From positions 1-41,698 of IMG/VR virus record IMGVR_UViG_3300047508_000156: a stretch of DNA of 41,698 nt. One strand, given 5' to 3'. The position numbers and the translations under genes are program-made. The DNA is from a virus. Position 1 is the stretch's first letter. Each line of letters opens with the position of its first letter. The notes beneath the pieces are model-generated. The model was given only the letters and a program-made list of their open reading frames with translations, was not told the origin of the DNA and did not search any database. This document shows, piece by piece, positions 10,279 to 41,698 of this stretch.

Positions 10279-10407
10279 AGCTCTCAATTCGTCTCAGAAC
10301 GGACGCTAGGGCCCTCTATGGGGTTGTTCGCGTCATCGCGACATTCCGAAGAGCCGTGGCCGGTGTCATCGTCTGAGCCGCGAACCTGCCCGGGGCACCG
10401 TCCGGCG

Positions 10408-11433
10408 TTATAGGGGACAGGGGAGCCAACCGTTTCGGCCCGCCATCGGCGGGCCGTTTCGCGTTCCCCATTCGATGAGTTGCCGGCCGATCCATTCGGC
10501 GATCTGGGGGACGAGGCTGTTGCCGAGGGCTCGCAGTCGGTCCACCCGAGCGGGAATCCCATTAGCCACTCGACCCACGTCGGGTTCAGCGAGCCACCAG
10601 CCTGTGTCGAGAGCGCCGTCCCGCCTTGCTCGTAGCTGCCCTTCCGATGCCCCGTGTCGTCCGTGCAGGGCGTCGTCCACAGACCGTCCTTCGTCAGCTT
10701 CGCTCGTTCGGCATTCGCCACCTGGGTCCGCAGGTTCTCCCCGCCGTCCCGCCCCGAGTTCCCCGGCCCGCCCGTTCCGTCGCTCTGGGTCGGGGTGGCC
10801 CACTTCATCACCTGCTCGACCAGGCCCGTCTGCTTCCCGTGGCCCGTCGCCGTTCGTCCATGATGCGCCGCCTCCGATGCTCGCGGGGTACGCCACGAGC
10901 CAGACCCGGTCCCGCCGGTGAGGGGCGCCAAAGGCCGACGCTGGTAGATGGTCCCATTCCGCATCGAACCCGCACGCGGCAAGGTCCGCAAGCACGACGT
11001 CGAGTCCTCGAGAAGTGAGAGCTGGGACGTTCTCAACGATGACGTAGCGGGGTCGTAGTTCCCCAATGAGCCTTGCGAACTCCCGCCAAAGACCCGAGCG
11101 TTCTCCGGCCAGTCCGGCCCCGCGGCCGGCGAGGCTGATGTCCTGGCACAGCTACGGGAAGCCTCCACAGAGCACGTCGACTCGCGGGACGTACTGAAGA
11201 CTTCCATCTAGCTCACCCCCTTCCGATCGGCACGAGACTTCTGCTTGCGGAGCGGCAGCGAGCGTCCGGACGTCGGGGTACACGGGCACCCCGGGCCAGT
11301 GCCGGGCAAGAACCCGCTGGCAGAAGGGGTCCTGCTCGCAGAACCACACAGTGCGCATACCGGCTCGCTCGAGGCCGAGGTCGAAGCCGCCAATGCCCGA
11401 AAAGAGCGATCCGACGGTGAGCTGCTCATTCAT
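10408..11433 (-). pseudogene. C5 cytosine DNA methyltransferase interrupted by in-frame amber at its catalytic motif
   Basis: The frame has motif I ([16 protein letters not shown], residues 10-25) and motif IV up to CGGFP (89-93). Then come TAG and CTG before CQDIS, whose Cys is the catalytic nucleophile. Relatives normally read GGFPCQDIS, so six extra bases (complement of 11149-11154) sit exactly inside the active-site motif. Reading then continues in the same frame through ENVPAL (motif VI), APHRRDRVWLVAYP (motif VIII) and RALGNSLVPQ (motif X) to TAA at 10408. The full frame is 342 codons. As written the gene gives a 93-aa fragment unless the amber is read through. TAG is a normal stop elsewhere in this genome. 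Confidence 0.85.
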
Positions 11434-11921
11434 GGTCTCCCTGCCTCGATGATGAACTTCTGGCCGTCGCAGAACCCGGCGAGCTGGCGTCCGAGGACGG
11501 AGCCGCCGGACCGGTTCTCCGAGCTGGGCACGTAGGTGACGCTGGAGCGACGCCCGTCCGAGTGCAGGCCGGCTTCCTCGGTGACGGCGGGCGGGTACTC
11601 GTCACGGTCGAATCCGGTGCGGGTGGGGATGCCTCGGAGGTCGTCGCGGCGGCGGCCGTCGGCGTTGTCGCGTTCGAGCGTGAGGGTCCGCGGCGCCGGG
11701 TCGATGGGGTTGGCGGCGAGTTCGCCGACGGCTCGGCCGTCTATGGCGTTACGTTCGTGGTCGATGAGGTGTTGGTGGCGGATGTCGTCGAGGTTGACGA
11801 CGACGGGCAGGGGGGCACGTTGGCAGGGGGGCGGGTTCTGGGCGTCGACGAGGGGGGCGAGCAGGATGGCGAGGCCGGCTGCTCCGAGGACGATGGTGAG
11901 GAAGGCGGCGATGAACCTCAT
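11430..11921 (-). CDS. Secreted NucA/NucB-like DNase
   Basis: A 163-aa protein with an N-terminal signal sequence or anchor ([20 protein letters not shown], residues 1-20, then LAPLVDA). The C-terminal half carries DRDEYPPA (105-112) and [10 protein letters not shown] (131-140), which match the conserved acidic and Asn/Arg motifs of the NucA/NucB deoxyribonuclease family. It would act outside the cytoplasm on DNA. Start and stop overlap both methyltransferase neighbours (ATGA), so it belongs to their operon. An exported DNase in a phage early operon is unusual. It may degrade extracellular or incoming DNA. Confidence 0.75.
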
Positions 11922-13273
11922 GTGGTTGTCTCCGCGGCCCCGTTGAGTAACGGCGCGTCGTCCCGGATTCTCCAGCGTGCCATGTCCGCGTACACCGGGT
12001 TGAGTTCGACACCGATGAACGACCGGTTGTGCCGCAGGGCGACCATGCCGGTTGTGCCGGCGCCGGCGAACGGGTCGAGCACAACGCCCGAGGCGCTGCC
12101 GTCACCGTGAGAGCAGGACGGCTCGAAGCCGATGGTGCGACGCTCGTAGGCGTGATTCGGCGTAAAGCCTCCGCGCTCCATACGTGCCGCCCGATCACCG
12201 TTCGGGCCTTCGGGAAAGACGACATGATCGGCGGCCATGGGGGTCGGCGGACGCTTGTTCGTATGTCCCACGTCGATCAGATCGCCCTTCTCGGTGACCC
12301 GCACCCACGGCGCACCGCATTCCCCGCACGCCCGCTCCGGCGCCCCGGCCAGGATGCACGGCTCGATCAGCTTCGGCGGGAACGTCGCGAAGTGCGCCCC
12401 GGCGTAGGGCTGGGTGGCGACGGTCCAGACGGAGCGTTTGTTGCGGCCCCCATCGACCACCGCGAACGTATTCAGACCAGAGTGGCCGTTCCCGACCTGC
12501 TCGTGATACAGCCCGCCACCGGGCGCCCCATAGCCACGGGTGGCATCCTCCCGGATTGCGTCGGCGTCGTAGAAGTACCGCGGCCCCTTCGACAACAGGA
12601 ACACGTACTCGTGCGCCTTCGTCGGCCGGTCCGTCACGCTCTCCGGCATCGGGTTCGGCTTCGACCAAATGATGTCGCTGCGGAGAAACCAGCCGTCAGC
12701 GCGGAGCGCGAACGCGACCATCCACGGGACCCCGAGCAGGTCTTTCGACTTGATCCCGGGCAGCTTGTGGCGATTCGCCTGCCCGGCCTGAGCGTGACCA
12801 GTGAGATCGCGCCCCCCGGTCTGCGCAGACTTGTCCTTGAACCCGCCGCCGTTGAACGATCCGACGGGCGGCCCGCTGTAGCTGTCACCGAGGTTCAGCC
12901 ACACGGTGCCGTCATCCCGAAGCACCCGCCGCACCTCACGGAACACGACGACCAGCGTGGCCACGAACTCGTCCGGGGTCGGCTCGAGGCCGATCTGACG
13001 GTCGACGCGACGGGCGCCGCACTTGCCGCACGTCTCGCGGAAGGGCGTCGTGCGCGCCAGTTCGTCCGTCATCGCTCGGCCGTTGCCGGGCGCCCCACGG
13101 TCCCAGTTCGACTGCTTGTGTCCGCACGCCGGGTCGCCGCCCTCCCACTCACCGGTCCCATAGTCCCGCAGCCCGAAGTACGGCGGTGACGTCACGCACG
13201 TATGCACGCTTTGCGCCGGCAGCGCTCGTAGGACGTCGCGGCAGTCGCCCTCGATGATCCGCCAGGTGCTCAT
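11918..13273 (-). CDS. Site-specific DNA methyltransferase (N4-cytosine or N6-adenine type)
   Basis: A 451-aa beta-class amino-methyltransferase: catalytic TSPPYFGLRDYG at residues 28-39 near the N-terminus and the SAM-binding VLDPFAGAGTTGMVAL near the C-terminus, followed by FIGVELNPVY. Two cysteine pairs (CGKCGARR and CGECGAPW) may form zinc ribbons inserted in the recognition region. It probably protects phage DNA from host restriction. It lies between two HTH genes and a DNase gene in one overlapping operon. Confidence 0.92.
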   Translation of the reverse strand: MSTWRIIEGDCRDVLRALPAQSVHTCVTSPPYFGLRDYGTGEWEGGDPACGHKQSNWDRGAPGNGRAMTDELARTTPFRETCGKCGARRVDRQIGLEPTPDEFVATLVVVFREVRRVLRDDGTVWLNLGDSYSGPPVGSFNGGGFKDKSAQTGGRDLTGHAQAGQANRHKLPGIKSKDLLGVPWMVAFALRADGWFLRSDIIWSKPNPMPESVTDRPTKAHEYVFLLSKGPRYFYDADAIREDATRGYGAPGGGLYHEQVGNGHSGLNTFAVVDGGRNKRSVWTVATQPYAGAHFATFPPKLIEPCILAGAPERACGECGAPWVRVTEKGDLIDVGHTNKRPPTPMAADHVVFPEGPNGDRAARMERGGFTPNHAYERRTIGFEPSCSHGDGSASGVVLDPFAGAGTTGMVALRHNRSFIGVELNPVYADMARWRIRDDAPLLNGAAETTT

Positions 13274-13398
13274 GGCTTTTCCTTGTCGAGGGCCTCGAGG
13301 GCGATGCGTCCCAGTCGGCCGCCGTCGTCGCTGTTGGCGATGAGTTGCAGGGCGAGGCGCCATGTGTCGAGGAGTTGCCGCATCTGCTCGGGGGTCAC
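13270..13398 (-). CDS. 42-aa hypothetical protein
   Basis: The GTG start at 13398 overlaps the stop of the HTH gene (GTGA) and its stop overlaps the methyltransferase start. It is a mostly helical peptide (VTPEQMRQLLDTWRLALQL at the start). A small helical partner or leader is possible. The function is not recognisable. Confidence 0.55.
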   Translation of the reverse strand: MTPEQMRQLLDTWRLALQLIANSDDGGRLGRIALEALDKEKP

Positions 13399-13805
13399 AG
13401 TTCCTCCTCGGGGAGCACGGCCCAGGGGGACACGCCGATCGCTTCCGCCATCTGCATGACGGTCTCGGCGTCGACCATCGTCCGCCGTGACCGTTGGCCG
13501 TGGCCGTTTATGTCGTCGAGGAGGCCGAGGGTGTGCTTGACGCGGGCTGCGTCCCCGTTGCCGCGGTGGTCCCACCATCCGAGCTGGCGGGCGACGTGCG
13601 CGGCGGTGAGCGGCGAGTTGAGGAACGCTTCGCGGAGGGGGGCGACGGGGACTTTGCCGGGGCGGCCGGGGGCGTAGCGCAGGACGGTCCATTGGCTGAT
13701 GCCGAGCATGACGGCGACGCGGCGGGCGCTGAGTCCGTCTTGGTGGCGGAGGGTGAGGATCTCGTGGATGACGGGGTCCGGGGTCTTGGTCTTCCAGCCG
13801 CTCAT
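13395..13805 (-). CDS. Helix-turn-helix regulator
   Basis: A 136-aa protein. GLSARRVAVMLGISQWTVLR (about residues 25-44) is a clear helix-turn-helix. A second region near the C-terminus (TVMQMAEAIGVSPWAVL) looks like an XRE-type helix pair. ATG at 13805, which overlaps the upstream stop (ATGA) and follows GGAAGAAG, is preferred over GTG 13817. It probably binds DNA to regulate this operon or a wider set of genes. Confidence 0.72.
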   Translation of the reverse strand: MSGWKTKTPDPVIHEILTLRHQDGLSARRVAVMLGISQWTVLRYAPGRPGKVPVAPLREAFLNSPLTAAHVARQLGWWDHRGNGDAARVKHTLGLLDDINGHGQRSRRTMVDAETVMQMAEAIGVSPWAVLPEEEL

Positions 13806-14146
13806 GGCTTCTTCCACGCCTGCAGGGGCCGGAACTCATCCGCCAGTAGGGGCAGCGGGATGTCGAGGGCGATGGCGAGCATGTCGGCCTGGTGCAAGCT
13901 GAGCATGTCGCGGCTGCCGTCGTAGGTGGCCATGACGACGTGGCGGCTCATGCCGGCGCGTTCCGCGAGCCTGCGGACGGCGTAGGTGTTCTCGTCGGTG
14001 CTGGTCCATAGCCAGTGGAACGGCTGGGCTCGTTTCCAGCTGACGTACGCCTTGACCCAGGTATGGATGGCTTTGGCGAACGGGGCGGCTGGGGTGTAGA
14101 GCTGTGGTTGCCGGGTGCCGTAGGGCGGGTCGAGGGTGAGGCTCAT
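13802..14146 (-). CDS. HTH (XRE-like) protein
   Basis: A 114-aa protein whose second half (YAVRRLAERAGMSRHVVMAT, then LSLHQADMLAIALDIPL) reads as an XRE-type helix-turn-helix with the usual last helices. The first half is aromatic-rich (HTWVKAYVSWKRAQPFHWLW). It is coupled to both neighbours by ATGA overlaps. Such proteins act as repressors or immunity-like switches. The absence of an integrase argues against classical lysogeny. Confidence 0.65.
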   Translation of the reverse strand: MSLTLDPPYGTRQPQLYTPAAPFAKAIHTWVKAYVSWKRAQPFHWLWTSTDENTYAVRRLAERAGMSRHVVMATYDGSRDMLSLHQADMLAIALDIPLPLLADEFRPLQAWKKP

Positions 14147-14325
14147 GGTCGTCTCATGCGCATCATCTGGCCGCCGACGACGAGTTTGGGTTCGGTGTCG
14201 GAGACGAGCAGCAGGACGGGTCCGTCGGGGGTGTCGAAGACGGCTCCGAGGCTTTCGGCTTTGAGTTCTTGGCAGAGGGTTTGGAGGCGTTCGACGGCTT
14301 CTGTCATGCCTGGTTCTGGGTCCAT
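14143..14325 (-). CDS. 60-aa first gene of methyltransferase operon
   Basis: It starts with ATG at 14325 after the conserved AAAGGACGC ribosome site. N-terminal helix (MTEAVERLQTLCQELKAESL) and a beta-hairpin (GAVFDTPDGPVLLLVSDTEPKLVVGG). A very similar pattern (helix plus two strands) occurs in small actinophage hypothetical proteins. Function unknown. The site architecture shows that this operon begins here. Confidence 0.65.
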   Translation of the reverse strand: MDPEPGMTEAVERLQTLCQELKAESLGAVFDTPDGPVLLLVSDTEPKLVVGGQMMRMRRP

Positions 14326-14359
14326 CCGGCGTCCTTTCTTGCTTCCCGGCGCTTGTATG

Positions 14360-14468
14360 CAAGGTAGGGAGGTAGGAAGGGGTAGCTACGCAAGTACGTG
14401 CGCGCGGGAGGGATGCGGTCTCTCTCTACGCGCGTTGTCTCCCTACACATCCCTACCCTCCTACCTTC
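14360..14468. repeat. Imperfect long inverted repeat at operon boundary
   Basis: The arm at 14360-14377 (CAAGGTAGGGAGGTAGGA) and the arm at 14451-14468 (CCCTACCCTCCTACCTTC) can pair over 18 positions with few mismatches. They enclose the leader region between the 274-aa gene and the 60-aa gene. The enclosed 73 bases carry a TCTCTCTAC tract. It could be a terminator for the upstream operon, an mRNA structure, or a protein-binding site. Confidence 0.45.
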
Positions 14469-15277
14469 TCGATGGTGCTCTGAAGCAGCTCCGGCTCCGG
14501 CCAGTCGGCCGGGATGACGTACAGCCGGGCCTCCACGTACGGGGACCCGGCGGCCGTCGCCTTGCGCTGGATCCGGGTCTGCTGCCAGCCGACCTCAGCG
14601 AGGCGCGAGTTCAGCGTCGGCCACGACAGTCCGCCCTTCACCTGGGAGCGGACGTGGTCGGCGTAGTCCTCGCGGCGGACGTAGCGGACGTTGTCGCGTT
14701 GGTCGACGACGATGAAGGTCTCGCGGGCGGTGCCGTGGCTGTTGGCTTCGTCGGCGGCGCGGGCCCGCTGCCAGCCGGCGAGGACCTTCCGCCACTCGGC
14801 TTCGTCGTCGGGGTTCGTGGAGATGGTCGGCCTCGAGTCCACGTAGCGCAGCCACCACGACACCGCCTCCTCGTGCGGGTCGACATCGGCCTTCAGGTCG
14901 GCGAGCTGCATGACCACCCAGGCGATGAGCATGGCGTCGTGGCCGGTGAACTTCCGCGGCCGGATCCCGCACTCGCTCATGAGGACCGCCTGCAGCCCGT
15001 TCGGCTTCTGCAAGGTGCTCTGGTGTGTCCAGCGGACTCGTTGCCCGGAGCGTCGGAGGAGGACTATGGCGGCGTCGAGATGCTTGCCGAATCGTTCCCC
15101 GGAGACGAACGGGTCGTTGGTGGGCCAGAGCTCGTTCAGCCACTTGCAGTAGTCGGCGGCGACGGCTCCTTCGTCGGGCACCCATTTCGGCATCTTGGGC
15201 GCGGTCTTCGTCTTGGTCGCGCCGTTGGGGTTGACGACCTCCTCGGCGATCTCTTTGAGTTCGTCGAAGTCACCCAT
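14453..15277 (-). CDS. 274-aa protein, possible replication function
   Basis: No firm family. The N-terminal 30 residues are a charged helix and linker. The middle is helical and Trp-rich (WVVMQLADLKADVDPHEEAV). The C-terminal region contains RYVRREDYADHVRSQVKGGL and SWPTLNSRLAEVGWQQTRIQ, which resembles a winged-helix module like those at the ends of phage primase/helicase proteins. It directly follows a zinc-ribbon gene, a pairing seen with primase-like zinc domains. A role in replication initiation is plausible but unproven. It is the last gene of the long minus early operon. Confidence 0.6.
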   Translation of the reverse strand: MGDFDELKEIAEEVVNPNGATKTKTAPKMPKWVPDEGAVAADYCKWLNELWPTNDPFVSGERFGKHLDAAIVLLRRSGQRVRWTHQSTLQKPNGLQAVLMSECGIRPRKFTGHDAMLIAWVVMQLADLKADVDPHEEAVSWWLRYVDSRPTISTNPDDEAEWRKVLAGWQRARAADEANSHGTARETFIVVDQRDNVRYVRREDYADHVRSQVKGGLSWPTLNSRLAEVGWQQTRIQRKATAAGSPYVEARLYVIPADWPEPELLQSTIEKVGG

Positions 15278-15479
15278 CGCTGCGCCCGCAGGCTGTGCAG
15301 CGGATGCGGACCTTCCTGCCGCGGGGTACGACGCAGACTGGTCGGTAGAGCCCGAGGTCGTCTCCGTCTTGGGCGTGGCAGTGGGGGCAGTCCATGACGA
15401 TCATCTCTATGGGGGTGTCGATGAGTGGTCTGAGGCCGACTTGTTCGTACTGGACTCGCAAGCGTTCGAGGACGGTCAT
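15270..15479 (-). CDS. Zinc-ribbon protein, primase-like
   Basis: A 69-aa protein with CPHC near residue 34 and CTAC near residue 62, separated by strands (YRPVCVVPRGRKVRIRCTAC). This is the layout of a zinc ribbon as found at the N-terminus of bacterial and phage primases. It overlaps both neighbouring genes. It may form a two-protein primase or replication factor with the 274-aa product. Other nucleic-acid-binding roles are possible. Confidence 0.65.
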   Translation of the reverse strand: MTVLERLRVQYEQVGLRPLIDTPIEMIVMDCPHCHAQDGDDLGLYRPVCVVPRGRKVRIRCTACGRSDG

Positions 15480-15919
15480 TGCAACCGCTGCCGATCCAGG
15501 TGGGCGAGGCGAGCGCAAGGCGTGCAACTGCAGTGCGAGTGCAGCGGCCGTCGCGTGAATTCATCTACGACCTGCTCATAGGACGAGACACCACGCATGG
15601 ACCGTTTGGTCTGTGCGATATACGCATATGCGGCAGTGCGTCCTCGTTCGTCGTAGATGGCTTCTGCTCGAGCGAGAAGGCGGGAGCCCGCGTAGCGCGG
15701 GGGCGGATACAGCACGTTCTCGTTGTGGTAGAGCATCCGCCGGATCTCGGCGACAGCTTCGACGGGCCATTCTTCGCGACCGTCCAGGAAGTCCTCGAAC
15801 GAGATTGCGCGCCGGTCCACCACGATGATCCGGTCGCCGGGGTGTTTGCGTCCGGGGGTCGTTTCGATAACGACCCCCGAAACTGAGCGACGTTCCAATG
15901 GCAGCGGTTCGTCGTTCAT
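15476..15919 (-). CDS. 147-aa hypothetical protein
   Basis: The ATG at 15919 overlaps the stop of the Dam gene (ATGA). The N-terminal half looks beta-rich (VVIETTPGRKHPGDRIIVVD). The middle has an acidic-aromatic helix, and the C-terminus has a cysteine group (HSHCSCTPC) that may bind metal. No known family is recognised. It sits with DNA-modification and nuclease genes. Confidence 0.65.
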   Translation of the reverse strand: MNDEPLPLERRSVSGVVIETTPGRKHPGDRIIVVDRRAISFEDFLDGREEWPVEAVAEIRRMLYHNENVLYPPPRYAGSRLLARAEAIYDERGRTAAYAYIAQTKRSMRGVSSYEQVVDEFTRRPLHSHCSCTPCARLAHLDRQRLQ

Positions 15920-16761
15920 CGTTCCCACCAGACGACGCCCGCCGGCCGTCCGAAGACGACGACAGCAGATGGGAACGGCGCTGAATTCTGTGAGGTGCCG
16001 AACTTCAGACGTCCGCGTAGGAACCGGATCTCGCCATGGCGGCAGTGGTCCCACCACCAGCCGGTGTCGACACGGGCGGGAATGAGGCAGACTACGGTCG
16101 CCCCGCCGTCGGCTGCCTCGTGCGCCTTCGCTATCCACCGGGAGATTTCATCCCCGTAGGGGGGGTTCATCCAGCAGGTTCCTGTCCATTCCTGCGTGAG
16201 CCCGTCGGTTTCGGGTGTGAAGTACTTCTCACATTTGGCCGATGAGTCCAGGGCGCAGACGTCGAGTGTGAAACTGAACTCGGTGTCGAGCTCGTCGAAC
16301 AGGGGTTGCGGGGTCTCCCACTCATCGGTCCCGCCAGCCTGGTTTGCCAACTGTCCGCGGGTACGGAGAAGGCCGGCACGGGTGGGCTGTGGCTCGTTCT
16401 CGACGTACTCGTTGAAGACCTCATCAGGGACAGCCGCGACTTGGCGAGCGCGGTGCTCAGCGTCGTAGTCCCGAGGACTTGCAACGTGCGAGTCCTCCGC
16501 ATGCTGGTTGCGCCCATGCTCGGCCGGCCCGAGCAGTTCGCCATACAGCCGCTCGCCCAAGAGACGAATGCGTCCCCACCGCTGCTCGCGTTCTGCGCCG
16601 AGCTTCGACAAGCGGATGGCCTGTTCGGCGAGTTTGATACGTCCCAGGAGCGCTTCGGCCTGTTCAGGTGTCTCAATGCTGTCGAGTGCGGCGAGGGCAT
16701 CCGCTTCCCACTGATCAGCCTCAACGAGCGTCGCGTCTGTACGTCTTGCGGGTAGGGTCAC
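15916..16761 (-). CDS. dam: Phage-type DNA N6-adenine methyltransferase (Dam family)
   Basis: A 281-aa protein. The N-terminal 140 residues are a helical Glu/Ala/Arg-rich extension. The C-terminal half is the phage Dam domain: DEWETPQPLFDELDTEF (146-162), then TLDVCALD, CWMNPPYGDEI with the catalytic NPPY at 199-202, and CLIPARVDTGWW. This is the typical DNA N-6-adenine-methyltransferase of phages. GTG at 16761, overlapping the nuclease stop (GTGA), fits the coupling pattern of this operon. It likely protects against restriction. Confidence 0.92.
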   Translation of the reverse strand: MTLPARRTDATLVEADQWEADALAALDSIETPEQAEALLGRIKLAEQAIRLSKLGAEREQRWGRIRLLGERLYGELLGPAEHGRNQHAEDSHVASPRDYDAEHRARQVAAVPDEVFNEYVENEPQPTRAGLLRTRGQLANQAGGTDEWETPQPLFDELDTEFSFTLDVCALDSSAKCEKYFTPETDGLTQEWTGTCWMNPPYGDEISRWIAKAHEAADGGATVVCLIPARVDTGWWWDHCRHGEIRFLRGRLKFGTSQNSAPFPSAVVVFGRPAGVVWWER

Positions 16762-17117
16762 AAAGTCTCCAGTTGAACTTGAGTGTTCCGCAGCGGAGGC
16801 CATTCCGATGCGGGGATCCGCTGCAAACCGCGCCTTGGTGGCCACCAGTACAGCCACGCCTCGCATCCGTGCTGTGCGGCAGTCTCAACCATGGCTTGAC
16901 GGTCAATGGGCAGAAAGTTCACCCATGGGGAGCGGGTCGTGGACTTGACCTCGATGAGCTGCATCTCCGGCCAGCCCGTGCGGTTGGTCACGGCGAGGAT
17001 GTCGCCGGCGCCGCCGATATGCCTGCGGGACGCGCACAGCCAGCCCTCCGTGGCCAGGAGGTCCATGACCTTCAGCTCCCGGGCGTTCCCGGCGCCGGGA
17101 GCGCGTTTGCGGCGCAT
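16758..17117 (-). CDS. PD-(D/E)xK nuclease, Holliday-junction-resolvase-like
   Basis: A 119-aa protein with the restriction-like nuclease layout: basic N-terminus, Glu14 in NARELKV, GAGDI (36-40) and IEVKST (55-60), giving the E...GxxD...ExK active site. Size and motif spacing fit archaeal-type Holliday junction resolvases and VRR-Nuc-like phage enzymes. It would cut branched DNA to prepare replicated genomes for packaging. Its neighbours are a DUF669-like protein upstream and Dam downstream, consistent with a replication and recombination cluster. Confidence 0.85.
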   Translation of the reverse strand: MRRKRAPGAGNARELKVMDLLATEGWLCASRRHIGGAGDILAVTNRTGWPEMQLIEVKSTTRSPWVNFLPIDRQAMVETAAQHGCEAWLYWWPPRRGLQRIPASEWPPLRNTQVQLETL

Positions 17118-21261: not shown

Positions 21262-21409
21262 GCTCGCCGCACCCGCCTGCACCGTCTGCGAACAGCCGGT
21301 GCAACGCTGCGAGATGCGCTGGGAACACACACCCGAAGGCTGGATCATCGGCCCCGTGTTCCTCGTGTGTGCCGCCGGGCACCGCAGCCCCGTGAAGTTG
21401 CTGGACTAG
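21239..21409 (+). CDS. 56-aa putative zinc-binding protein
   Basis: GTG at 21239 overlaps the end of the coiled-coil gene. The peptide carries CTVCEQPVQRC (residues 15-25), then strands WIIGPVFLVCAAGH with a further Cys and His, giving a plausible zinc ribbon. It is the last gene of the short plus operon and ends one base before the convergent lysozyme-like gene. Confidence 0.65.
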   Translation: MTRAELIELAAPACTVCEQPVQRCEMRWEHTPEGWIIGPVFLVCAAGHRSPVKLLD

Positions 21410-21410
21410 G

Positions 21411-21716
21411 TCAGCACGGGTCGAACGGGCACCAGTCCCGGCACCCGAACCGTTGCAGGGCCCCCACCAGGATCCGCCACTGCTGCCCGTACGACGCGAA
21501 CAGGGGGTCCCGGGCGTACCGGTGGCCGCCGTGCCTTCGCCACGCCTCCGGGGACCATTGAGCGATGCCGTGGTACTGGCCGTTCACGGCCCTGGGGTTG
21601 CCGCGCGATTCGTAGTGGACGATGCAGCGCGCGAGCGAGGTGGTTGACGCTTCGGCGTCCACGGTGGCCGGCAGGGTGGCCGCGATGGTTGCGGCGAGCC
21701 CGAGCAGTTTGCGCAT
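21411..21716 (-). CDS. Secreted Rpf-like transglycosylase domain protein
   Basis: A 101-aa protein with a signal peptide (MRKLLGLAATIAATLPATVD) and a mature lysozyme-fold domain: ARCIVHYESRGNPRAVN carries the catalytic Glu (in HYES), followed by YHGIAQWSPEAWRRHGG and a Cys-rich end (CRDWCPFDPC). This matches the transglycosylase-like domain of resuscitation-promoting factors, an actinobacterial family that cleaves peptidoglycan. GGGAGGAGG is an ideal ribosome site. It lies apart from the late lysis genes and back-to-back with the RAMP-like gene, so it may act early on the cell wall. Confidence 0.78.
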   Translation of the reverse strand: MRKLLGLAATIAATLPATVDAEASTTSLARCIVHYESRGNPRAVNGQYHGIAQWSPEAWRRHGGHRYARDPLFASYGQQWRILVGALQRFGCRDWCPFDPC

Positions 21717-21774
21717 GGTGCGCCTCCTCCCGTCGGAAGCGCGGCAAGCTAGCAGGTCACTGGCATACGTAGCC

Positions 21775-21803
21775 TTGACAGCGATTATATTCGCTTGTAG
21801 TCT
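21775..21803 (+). promoter_or_regulatory. Strong promoter of the RAMP-like gene and pentamer arrays
   Basis: TTGACA (21775-21780), exactly 17 bases, then TAGTCT (21798-21803). The -10 is the same hexamer as in the RHH promoter. Transcription should start near 21810. No terminator is seen between here and 23112, so the protein gene and the arrays may share one transcript. The AT-rich spacer (GATTATATT) stands out in this GC-rich genome. Confidence 0.8.
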
Positions 21804-21814
21804 GCGCGATGCGT

Positions 21815-21839
21815 GGCTTGGCTTGGCACTCACAGTGCC
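21815..21839 (+). other. Mini-array and hairpin in the leader of the RAMP-like mRNA
   Basis: Right after the predicted transcript start come three in-phase pentamers GGCTT GGCTT GGCAC (21815-21829), the same unit as in the downstream arrays. They run into a perfect 6-bp hairpin: GGCACT (21825-21830), loop CAC, AGTGCC (21834-21839). If the protein binds GGCNN RNA, it could bind here and control its own mRNA. Confidence 0.55.
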
Positions 21840-21886
21840 CGGCCGGGACCGTCAACAACACACCCAACAACACAGGAGAGAGGAAT

Positions 21887-22597
21887 ATGACCCCCTCCCC
21901 AGTTCGGCGAGTCATTCCCGCCGGCTATCAGGTGCATGAGTTGCATCTCGTCGGATCCACGCCTTTGCTGATGTCTTCCGGCGAGGCCGACCGTGAGAGC
22001 GACACGTTCGTCGCGTACCGCATGCTCACCAAGAAGCGCGGCAAGTCGCTCGAGGACGAGTCTCGTCTCCGCGAGCTGGAGTGGTACACGCGGCTGTACT
22101 ACGACGAGCAGGTCGGCTGCTACATCCCGGGCAAGAACATCAAGGAGCTGCTGCGCTCGGCCGCCACGAAGCTGCGCAAGGGCGAGGACATCAAGCGCTC
22201 GCTCATCATCCCCGAGTACCGTATCCCGCTGATCTACGACGGTCCGCGCGAGCCCGCCGAGTTGTGGGCCAAGAAGTTCTCCTACGTCGCAATGGTCGCG
22301 AACGCGGGCGCCGGCTCCGGCCGTGTCGAACGCTGCCGCCCCTGCTTCGACAAGTGGGAGCTCAAGTGCGAGATCGCCTTCGACCCGGAGGACCTGAACC
22401 TCTCGGAGGTCGAGTTCGCCGTGGAGCGCGCGCAGAAGTACGGGCTGGGTGACTATCGTCCGGACTTCGGTTCGTTCGAGTCGTCCCTTTCGTTTCTGCG
22501 GAAGCAGCGGGAGGACGCGAACGCGGACGGTGCGAAGCCGCGCGATAAGCGTGCTGAGAAGGCGAACGGGACGCGCGCAGCAGCCCTGATCGGCTAG
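21887..22597 (+). CDS. RAMP/Cas7-like RNA-binding protein next to pentamer arrays
   Basis: A 236-aa protein from ATG 21887 with AGGAGAGAGG upstream. ELHLVGSTPLLMSSGE (residues 18-33) resembles the first RAMP strand and following turn. YIPGKNIKELLRSAATKL (79-96) resembles the Cas7/Csm3-type IPGSSLKGxLR element. SGRVERCRPCFDKWEL (144-159) precedes a strand. KYGLGDYRPDFGSFE (184-198) resembles the C-terminal Gly-rich RAMP loop (GxGxxRxxGxG-type). The last 35 residues are charged and disordered. No nuclease, helicase or Cas5/Cas10 partner is nearby. The RAMP reading is from motifs, not a database match. It probably binds the pentamer RNA encoded just downstream. Confidence 0.72.
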   Translation: MTPSPVRRVIPAGYQVHELHLVGSTPLLMSSGEADRESDTFVAYRMLTKKRGKSLEDESRLRELEWYTRLYYDEQVGCYIPGKNIKELLRSAATKLRKGEDIKRSLIIPEYRIPLIYDGPREPAELWAKKFSYVAMVANAGAGSGRVERCRPCFDKWELKCEIAFDPEDLNLSEVEFAVERAQKYGLGDYRPDFGSFESSLSFLRKQREDANADGAKPRDKRAEKANGTRAAALIG

Positions 22598-22605
22598 AAA
22601 AACTT

Positions 22606-22706
22606 GGCAAGGTAGACCACGGTTAGGCCCGGCCCGGCTCGGTTCGGCAGTATGGGGCCAGGCAGGATCTCGGTGTGGCCCGGCTCGGTTCGGCAAGGCA
22701 AGGCAT
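22606..22706 (+). repeat. Pentamer array 1 (20 units of GGCNN)
   Basis: Nine bases after the RAMP-like stop codon the sequence falls into 5-base units. Twelve of 20 begin with exact GGC. Five begin with GGT, and units at 22616, 22651 and 22666 deviate. There is one extra base (22671), after which the phase resumes. The block GGCCC GGCTC GGTTC GGCA occurs twice (22631-22649 and 22677-22695). It ends GGCAT, as array 2 does, directly before a hairpin module. Confidence 0.85.
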
Positions 22707-22760
22707 TACATGGAGCATTCATCCTCTGCGGGAGTGATGTCCCGTAGGGGACATTGTCGT
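22707..22760 (+). ncRNA. Hairpin module 1 (54 nt) between arrays 1 and 2
   Basis: The module begins TACATGGAGCAT, as module 2 does. The stem TCCTCTGCGGGA (22722-22733) pairs over all 12 positions with TCCCGTAGGGGA (22740-22751) if two G-U pairs are allowed, around the loop GTGATG. The G-U pairs exist only in plus-strand RNA, which supports transcription in the same direction as the protein gene. It ends CATTGTCGT before the next GGCAT unit. Confidence 0.75.
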
Positions 22761-22868
22761 GGCATGTTGTGGGCTAGGCCCGGCGCAGGCGGGGCTCGGC
22801 ATGGCGCAGCGCGGCCCGGCTTAGGTTGGGTTCGGCATGGCGCGGCGCGGCATGGCATGGCATGGCAT
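22761..22868 (+). repeat. Pentamer array 2 (21 units of GGCNN)
   Basis: Seventeen of 21 units begin with exact GGC. Three units have six bases (ending at 22771, 22787 and 22823). The last four units are identical (GGCAT at 22849-22868), and GGCGC and GGCAT are frequent elsewhere, so this array is less diverse than array 3. It ends at the TACATGGAGCAT of module 2. Confidence 0.85.
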
Positions 22869-22922
22869 TACATGGAGCATCCACCTTCCACGGGAGTGAC
22901 ATCCCGTGGAAGGCATCGTCGT
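22869..22922 (+). ncRNA. Hairpin module 2 (54 nt) between arrays 2 and 3
   Basis: Same length as module 1, with conserved ends (TACATGGAGCAT and CGTCGT). The stem CCTTCCACGGGA (22884-22895) and TCCCGTGGAAGG (22902-22913) is a perfect 12-bp inverted repeat with loop GTGACA. Compared with module 1, stem positions 1, 3 and 6 change on both sides and keep pairing, and positions 4 and 7 change between G-U and A-U pairs. Confidence 0.8.
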
Positions 22923-23112
22923 GGCGAGGTCGGGCAAGGCAGCACAGGACCAGGCGAGGCTTGGCGGGACAAGGCTCGGCGCGGCGGGGCGAAACGAGGC
23001 ACGGCGCGGCGAGGCGAGGTTGGGCCAGACGCGGCTAGGTTGGGCTTGAACGGGCTGGGCTTGGCGCGACGAGGCGAGGCCAGGCGGGGCTGGGCAAGAC
23101 AAGACTTGGCAT
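22923..23112 (+). repeat. Pentamer array 3 (38 units of GGCNN in unbroken phase)
   Basis: This is 190 bases without a single phase break. Position 1 is G in 36 of 38 units, position 2 is G or A in all (A in 9), and position 3 is C in 34. Twenty-six units are exact GGC. Positions 4-5 are diverse; the first nine dinucleotides are GA CG AA AG AG CA GA TT GG. Arrays 1-2 contain runs of identical units, whereas this one does not. It ends five bases before a convergent small membrane-protein gene, with no third hairpin module. Confidence 0.88.
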
Positions 23113-23116
23113 ACGT

Positions 23117-23209
23117 TCACCGGCGCGCGGCGACGATCACGGCGACCGCGATCACGAGCAGCACGACCACGCCGACCACGCCGGCGGCGATCAGGTCAGA
23201 GAACGACAA
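23117..23209 (-). CDS. 30-aa membrane peptide
   Basis: A TTG start immediately follows the stop of the collagen-like gene (TGATTG). The peptide (start MSFSDLIAAGVVGVVVLLVI) is one hydrophobic helix ending in AARR. Composition and position at the end of the lysis region suggest a small membrane accessory protein. The start codon is weak and lacks a ribosome site, so coupling to the gene upstream would be needed. Confidence 0.48.
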   Translation of the reverse strand: MSFSDLIAAGVVGVVVLLVIAVAVIVAARR

Positions 23210-23602
23210 TCAGTCGAGAATGCAGGCAAAAATCGACGTCTGGCCGCCCGGCGCATTCAAAACCAGCTTGCCGAACGTCGACCCCGGCGGGCACACCTGC
23301 GCACCCGGGGGGCCGGCGGGGCCCGCAGGACCGGCCGGCCCCTGGGCGCCGGTCTCACCCTTGGCGCCGGCGGGACCGGCCGGGCCCTGAGCACCGGGAG
23401 CACCCGGGGCGCCCTTCGATCCCTTCGATCCCTTCGAGCCCTTGGGACCGGGCGGCCCCTGCTCGCCGGTGCCGACATTCACCGTAACCGTTCGCGTCGG
23501 AGTCCCGCTTCCGCTCTGGGCGATGACGGCCGCGGCGCCCATGCCGCCGGCCGCCGCCATCGTCGAAGCCCCGACCACCGCGAGGATCGTGCTAGTTCGC
23601 AT
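23210..23602 (-). CDS. Collagen-like membrane or secreted protein 2
   Basis: A 130-aa protein with an N-terminal hydrophobic anchor ([20 protein letters not shown]), a linker, then about 18 Gly-X-Y triplets ([29 protein letters not shown] and similar, residues 53-107) and a short Cys-containing end (FACILD). It likely forms a trimeric collagen-like stalk on the membrane or cell surface. It overlaps the 78-aa gene by 11 bases. Phage collagen-like repeats are known mostly from tail fibres; a membrane anchor makes a structural tail role less likely. Confidence 0.78.
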
Positions 23603-23828
23603 AGCCGCGCTGCCCCGAGTGGACCTTCAGGTCATGGAGCTCCCGTGCCATCGCCTCAGCCTCCTGGCGTGTCTCCCGTAGCCGCTTCAGGCATTCCTCG
23701 TGCTCCTCGTCGCGGCTCTTGCGCAGCGCCATGATCGTCGAGGCTATACCCCCGACGGCGGACACGATGGCCGCGATGCCGAGGAGCGTGGGTGCAGTGT
23801 CGACCGCGAGGATGAGGACGTCGTCCAT
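23592..23828 (-). CDS. 78-aa membrane protein with cytoplasmic coiled coil
   Basis: A hydrophobic N-terminal segment ([20 protein letters not shown], residues 12-31) is followed by a long charged helix ([20 protein letters not shown] and on to LHDLK). The layout fits an i-spanin-like or holin-accessory protein. It lies between the two collagen-like genes. It might be part of the lysis system, but there is no outer membrane to fuse in an actinobacterial host unless it has a mycomembrane. Confidence 0.65.
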
Positions 23829-23831
23829 GTT

Positions 23832-24614
23832 CTACTGGCAGACATACCCGTTGGCGACGGCCGCGTCCGGGGTGCACGTGAACGCGACGCCGGGGACGAC
23901 ACCGTTCGGGAACGAGAACTGCGACGGTGCCGGACCGACCGGCCCTTGCGGACCTACCGCGCCGGGGGCACCGTCGGCGCCGGGAGGGCCGGCTGGGCCC
24001 TGCGGTCCCGTAACCCCGTCGGCGCCCGCAGCGCCCGCGGGTCCCGCAGCCCCTGTCGCGCCCTGCGGCCCCGGGACGGTGCTGTCCACGCCTGCTGGAC
24101 CAGCCGGTCCGACGGAACCGACGTCACCTTTCACGCCGCGTTCCCCGGGGGCGCCCACGTCACCCGTGTCCCCGGCCGGTCCGGGCGGCCCGACGCAGGT
24201 CGGCTCGAGGCTCGCCAGACACGGTGTCCCCGGATCACCCTGCGGCCCCCGAGGGCCACGGACCCCGGCGAGACCCGGCAGGCCGCGAGCGCCCGGGATG
24301 CCGGGCCGTCCCGGCTGCCCGGCCTGCCCGGTGATCCCGGGTTGCGGGACCGGCAATGTCAGGTTGAGGCAGCGGGCAGCGCGTTTCGGGCCGCGGCTGT
24401 TGAGCAGGCATTTCGTGACCTTGTTCGTCTGCAGCTGCGCGGCGGTTGATTGCTGCTTCGCTTGTCCGCTTTCCGTCTTCGCGGCCCCGGCCGTGTTCTT
24501 CGCGCGTTGTGTCGTGATCGATGTGACCGCGAGAGCGACGGCGACGAGCAGCGCGACACCGGCGATGACGAGCGGGAGGCCGCCCCGCCGGATGGACGCA
24601 AGGAATCGTTGCAT
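23832..24614 (-). CDS. Collagen-like membrane or secreted protein 1
   Basis: A 260-aa protein with an anchor ([20 protein letters not shown], residues 14-33), a Gln/Ala helical stalk with Cys ([17 protein letters not shown]), two blocks of Gly-X-Y triplets (residues 92-130 and 140-230) broken by [12 protein letters not shown], and a C-terminal head with paired cysteines ([16 protein letters not shown]). It is probably a trimer projecting from the cell membrane. It is coupled (TGATG) to the coiled-coil gene upstream. It could also be a virion fibre, but a clear membrane anchor is unusual for one. Confidence 0.8.
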
Positions 24615-41401: not shown

Positions 41402-41698
41402 CTACGTGAGTGCGGTCGCGGCGGCGCCCGTGTTGCGGCGACGGGCCCCGATGTTGACCGGATATACCACTGCGTCCACGAAGCTCGTGAACCCCTGACG
41501 CCACGGCATCCCGGACTTGCCGTCGCCGTGACCGGCGATGTCGGATGCCCAGGTGGGCTTGTCGATGTTGCCGACGACCTTGATGAGGTCCGGCCGGTTG
41601 ATCATGAACCAGTCGCTGTCGAGGATGTCGGGGAACACGCGGAGGCCCATGCCGTTCCATTTCGGCTTGGTGACGTCCCCGGCCTGCATGTTCATCTC
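41402..41698 (-). CDS. Major capsid protein, C-terminal part (continues from 1111-1)
   Basis: The last 98 codons plus stop of the capsid gene, in frame with the part at 1-1111. Bases 41572-41698 repeat 1-127, so codons there are counted once in the full 426-aa protein. Characteristic phrases are MGLRVFPDILDSDWFMINRP and a C-terminal AVVYPVNIGARRRN. The end of the gene is followed by a hairpin at 41351-41383. Confidence 0.85.
   Translation of the reverse strand, partial: EMNMQAGDVTKPKWNGMGLRVFPDILDSDWFMINRPDLIKVVGNIDKPTWASDIAGHGDGKSGMPWRQGFTSFVDAVVYPVNIGARRRNTGAAATALT
41572..41698. repeat. Right copy of exact 127-bp terminal direct repeat
   Basis: Identical to bases 1-127. It joins the ends of the window into a circle of 41,571 bp within the capsid coding sequence. 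Confidence 0.93.

Follow-up and report, generated by a model that had tools for sequence, protein, structure and literature searches.

A probable divergent VIPR locus with a 38-unit pentamer tract in a novel phage genome

The locus described here is, with a probability of about 0.93, a divergent VIPR (Viral Interference Programmable Repeat) locus, in which a Vipr protein and vrRNA tracts would guide silencing at dsDNA. It lies in a phage record of 41,698 nt (IMGVR_UViG_3300047508_000156), and this whole stretch is referred to as the window. The anatomical parts of VIPR, namely a Vipr RAMP, adjacent GGY/NN tracts, and a structured 3' tail, are all present. Our own analysis covered the protein family and fold, the tract structure, the covariation of the tails, and the association of gene and array across phages. 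We infer the expression, activity, and targets of the locus by analogy; vrRNA expression, the 1-nt skip, dsDNA binding, and repression are all known from relatives (PMC13142463).

VIPR was reported in a 2026 preprint as the first RNA-guided system with non-contiguous reading of DNA and was proposed to be older than CRISPR (PMC13142463). It consists of a Vipr RAMP, vrRNAs of 9 to 16 repeats each in which GGY and NN alternate and which carry a structured tail, and usually a vap gene; this accessory gene is typical of VIPR, and its universality was not claimed. The system acts against competing phages and satellites by silencing, and that of the model phage of the preprint, SUSP1, is programmable through NN. 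The vrRNA dinucleotides read dsDNA with one base skipped per dinucleotide, and not zero or three as the first-pass annotation of the window had supposed (PMC13142463). That annotation had inferred the principle correctly from the sequence alone, but its claim of a new system fails, VIPR having already been described. Its guide RNA of GGC-NN units with the information in NN and the lack of a nuclease nearby agree with published VIPR, as would the probable silencing of rivals (PMC13142463).

The 236-aa protein, whose reading frame follows a good Shine-Dalgarno sequence (ggagagagga), showed no match in a Pfam search and fell in phrog_4652 (E = 1.3e-38). On its own it matched the solved SUSP1 Vipr (PDB 36pp) at E = 1.7e-19, and a profile of 25 homologues matched this chain at E = 3.2e-71. 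An AlphaFold model built from the 25 homologues showed a pLDDT of 84.7. In a fold search of the PDB with this model, Csm3 and type VII Cas7 chains were the top matches (Foldseek E about 1e-5), and the VIA comparison with Csm3/Cas7 chains gave Z scores as high as 11.5 across about 160 residues. Because such chains fill the top matches with Z scores of this size, the protein is a RAMP with a Csm3/Cas7 fold; the Cas7/RAMP-like nature proposed earlier was thus borne out by the 36pp match, the model, and the fold matches. The GLGDxRPxFG glycine loop and other invariant Vipr residues are retained. The Vipr-homologous part comprises residues ~15 to 199 and is followed by a basic C-terminal extension (~200 to 236), which is absent from most homologues. 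The protein is divergent, with a best identity of about 37 to 38% and a terminal branch of 2.75 changes per site, and no close relatives were found in the viral contigs or bacterial genomes searched.

The first GGC-NN pentamers begin less than 10 bases past the end of vipr, and three tracts follow, all on the plus strand (Table 1). Parsing by hand gave 77 units (20 + 19 + 38), and a strict in-register chain test kept 67, with 48 exact GGC and 57 GGY. Around the slips, tract 1 breaks into 12 + 7 strict units and tract 2 into 7 + 9, and tract 3 has 38. The arrays and their strand stand as first annotated, and the count differs from the 79 units with 55 exact GGC given then. The entropies of unit positions 1 to 5 were 0.37, 0.64, 0.72, 1.92, and 1.98 bits; GGY is nearly fixed and NN is close to the maximum. 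At the arrays, the highest GGY score over 10 units was 29/30, whereas 10 dinucleotide-model shuffles of the whole window never passed 24/30; scores of at least 27/30 occurred nowhere else in the window on either strand. Lag-5 autocorrelation was 0.50 in the array region versus 0.264 ± 0.024 elsewhere (maximum, 0.349). An Rfam scan of the array region returned nothing convincing. In tract 1, GGCCCGGCTCGGTTCGGCA is present twice (22631-22649 and 22677-22695), a repetition that points to recombination between guides or to their duplication.

A copy of a 57-nt conserved element, the vrRNA tail, comes after tract 1 and again after tract 2, and its final GGC opens the next tract. Between the two tail hairpins, three two-sided compensatory changes, two one-sided changes, and no disruptive change were found. 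No tail-like element or hairpin was found 3' of tract 3, where the flank folded no better than shuffled sequences (z = +0.6) and is met by a convergent small reading frame ending at 23119. All three arrays had been read as guides, but the tail-less tract 3 may not be an ordinary guide. Tract 3 may instead be a staggered array, as reported for some VIPR types (PMC13142463), or a decaying array.

Table 1. Features of the locus in window coordinates, and minihelix-tailed regions of related loci in coordinates of each locus
Feature	Position	Strand	Description
Possible promoter	21775-21803	+	TTGACA 21775-21780, 17-nt spacer, weak -10 TAGTCT 21798-21803
vipr gene	21887-22597	+	236-aa RAMP (Csm3/Cas7-like)
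vrRNA tract 1	22606-22706	+	20 units, one 1-nt slip; NN: AA AG AC TA CC CC TC TC AG GG CA AG CT (+1 nt) GT CC TC TC AA AA AT
vrRNA tail 1	22707-22763	+	Conserved repeat; 12-bp hairpin 22722-22733 / 22740-22751; z -2.9
vrRNA tract 2	22772-22868	+	19 units, two 1-nt slips; NN: TA CC GC (+1) GG TC AT GC GC CC TT (+1) TG TC AT GC GC AT AT AT AT
vrRNA tail 2	22869-22925	+	12-bp hairpin 22884-22895 / 22902-22913; z -4.2
Tract 3	22923-23112	+	38 GGY/NN units, single register, no tail hairpin after
Minihelix tails, L002	3576-3852
Minihelix tails, L003	1651-3148
Minihelix tails, L004	2735-4381
Minihelix tails, L018	2839-2884

The ends of the record share a 127-bp direct terminal repeat (1-127 / 41572-41698), which makes a complete circular assembly probable. 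Megablast found no related phage for it; it represents a novel phage of ~41.6 kb whose host is probably an actinobacterium. Upstream of vipr, a "strong promoter" had been annotated, which was not supported: the -35 TTGACA is perfect, but the -10 at a 17-nt spacing is weak and a consensus promoter scan of the locus reported none, so that the promoter is only half convincing. Divergent from vipr lies a minus-strand gene (21406-21747) with a signal-like N-terminus, whose product may be small, secreted, and similar to a lysozyme or transglycosylase; Pfam gave nothing for the minus-strand reading frame 21406-21714. Downstream of the arrays, two minus-strand genes (23210-24614) encode collagen-like Gly-X-Y repeat proteins, and three DNA methyltransferase genes lie on the minus strand at 10284-16866.

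Next, homologous loci in other phages were surveyed. By tblastn, homologues of the 236-aa protein were found in 129 phage records, including SUSP1 (locus L035); the flanks of five homologous loci were read, and about 45 loci were scanned for tracts. Most of these loci, which come from unrelated phages (Pseudomonas, Gordonia, Mycobacterium, and Felix O1-like phages), had GGCNN or GGTNN tracts beside the gene and invariably on its strand. The first-pass annotation thus passed its own check, the presence of pentamer arrays next to homologues. No opposite-strand tract was seen in the about 45 loci, and the GGY chain test found no tract in a minority of them (e.g., L031 and L033). Among the 113 tracts outside the window, the median length was 12 units and the longest had 24, so that tract 3 is longer than any of them. 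The second gene at homologous loci belongs to phrog_5926, which we equate with Vap1 on its position in the SUSP1 clade, a putative identity; a Vap1 profile had no match in the whole 41.7-kb record. No hammerhead was found among 19 homologous loci with Rfam at the gathering cut-off.

The tails of the actinophages Trine, MakoManhole, and LittleE and of one IMG/VR contig have the form of minihelices in which a T-stem with a canonical T-loop (TTCGANY) is stacked on an acceptor-like stem, 11 to 12 bp in all, joined by a 10- to 11-nt linker. A scan of the homologous loci with the minihelix motif gave 11 matches in 1.42 Mb of both-strand sequence, and every one of the 11 lay inside a VIPR array region, in the orientation of the array. 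Nine distinct copies showed 20 extra pair types and two-sided changes at 10 of 11 positions, pairing having been part of their selection; the location of the motif is for this reason stronger evidence than the covariation. In addition, ARAGORN called one actinophage tail a tRNA. The resemblance suggests that these tails are processed by tRNA maturation enzymes. The main text of the preprint makes no mention of tRNA-like tails (PMC13142463).

Compared with type II VIPR (Escherichia phage SUSP1 and a Pseudomonas fulva prophage; PMC13142463), the locus shares a phage-borne Vipr homologue, same-strand tandem GGY/NN tracts next to the gene, a structured 3' tail, and the lack of a nuclease. It differs in a protein only about 30% identical, the C-terminal extension, the lack of a Vap1 gene, another tail hairpin, one tail-less 38-unit tract, and register slips. 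GGCNN tracts and a 35 to 38% identical protein, annotated there as hypothetical, are shared with Gordonia phages Trine and MakoManhole and Mycobacterium phage LittleE, which also have a gene resembling Vap1 and tails that resemble a tRNA acceptor/T-arm, neither of which is present in the window. With the Csm3/Cas7 backbone subunits of class 1 CRISPR, the protein shares the RRM-based RAMP fold and a glycine-rich loop. Those subunits advance in 6-nt steps along a contiguous spacer, in contrast to the pentamer steps at the window, which also lacks CRISPR repeats and a cas gene cluster. A class 1 CRISPR-Cas system was ruled out: there is one RAMP gene, and pentamer tracts stand in place of repeats and spacers.

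Targets in viral contigs were sought with five guide stretches as exact NNxNNx patterns (1-nt skip) with no mismatch allowed. Units 7-15 and 29-37 of tract 3 and the end of tract 2 gave 0 matches each. Units 18-26 of tract 3 gave 1 match, in a terminase gene, without extension and at about chance level, and the end of tract 1 (8 units) gave 21 with inconsistent extension. Thus, the window guides matched nothing in viral contigs beyond chance by exact matching, and an exact pattern search with one LittleE guide also gave 0 matches. Self-targets in the window at skips of 0 to 3 were not clearly above shuffled controls, except for array-on-array matches at skip 3. The missing targets are not counted against function, because the scans admitted exact matches only. 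As a positive control for the 1-nt skip, LESphi2-type guides were searched against Pseudomonas genomes, where only a 2-mismatch chance match in a conserved transporter gene was found. Against D3, F10, phi297, F116, and LESphi2, one such guide matched 16/18 positions in F10 (shuffles, ≤15), which is too weak to claim. Because this control was uninformative, the 1-nt-skip code presumed for the locus is taken from the preprint (PMC13142463).

Several features sit uneasily with a working VIPR locus: no targets were found for the window guides, no Vap1 was found in the genome, the Vipr branch is long, tracts 1 and 2 contain 1-nt slips, and tract 3 is tail-less with 38 units against the published 9 to 16. 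The same slips, together with off-consensus units, the tail-less tract, the branch of 2.75, and the missing targets, would also fit a degenerating VIPR locus with slipped registers and lost tails, which is dead or in which only vrRNA1 and vrRNA2 work. We consider such degeneration unlikely, given that the frame of 236 codons is unbroken and its product keeps a confidently modelled fold and the invariant residues, the tail hairpin is maintained through compensatory changes, and the 38 units keep a single register that neutral decay would break.

It is far less probable that the pentamers, instead of being guides against other DNA, bind protein or RNA as an array through which the phage or vipr regulates itself. 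The position of the tracts directly 3' of the gene and the failure to find an outside target would suit such an array; against it, NN is near maximum entropy, the tracts differ between phages, the related SUSP1 system is programmable by NN (PMC13142463), and self-targets did not clearly exceed the shuffled controls. The tracts are also tandem and GC-rich, and open reading frames can be drawn through them, as expected of a satellite or coding repeat unconnected with the gene. This explanation was rejected as next to impossible because same-strand tracts also accompany the homologues of the gene that are found in Pseudomonas, Gordonia, Mycobacterium, and Enterobacteria phages; moreover, period 5 is unlike a codon repeat, and the structured tails covary.

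For the preferred reading as a divergent VIPR locus, the following mechanism is proposed. Vipr would be a single-RRM RAMP related to Csm3/Cas7, and the RNA of 22600-23112 would be co-transcribed with vipr. The precursor would give rise to vrRNAs, each a GGY/NN pentamer run followed by a hairpin tail. Vipr would coat the run with one subunit per pentamer, holding GGY and presenting NN, which would pair with dsDNA while one target base is skipped per dinucleotide. Bound sites would be silenced, probably in competing phages or prophages.

Since VIPR is already known, the locus adds a divergent member and not a new kind of system. A VIPR locus without Vap1 in an apparently complete genome may mark the minimal working set of one protein plus RNA, and the 38-unit tract could test the maximum length of a Vipr filament. 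We put forward, as a tentative and rather doubtful extension, a Vap-less lineage that uses the 38-unit tract as overlapping or exceptionally long guides, together with actinophage guide maturation by host RNase P or RNase Z recruited through the tRNA acceptor/T-arm-like tails. The tRNA-like tails of the actinophages suggest how guides leave the precursor, a step that the main text of the preprint leaves unexplained (PMC13142463).
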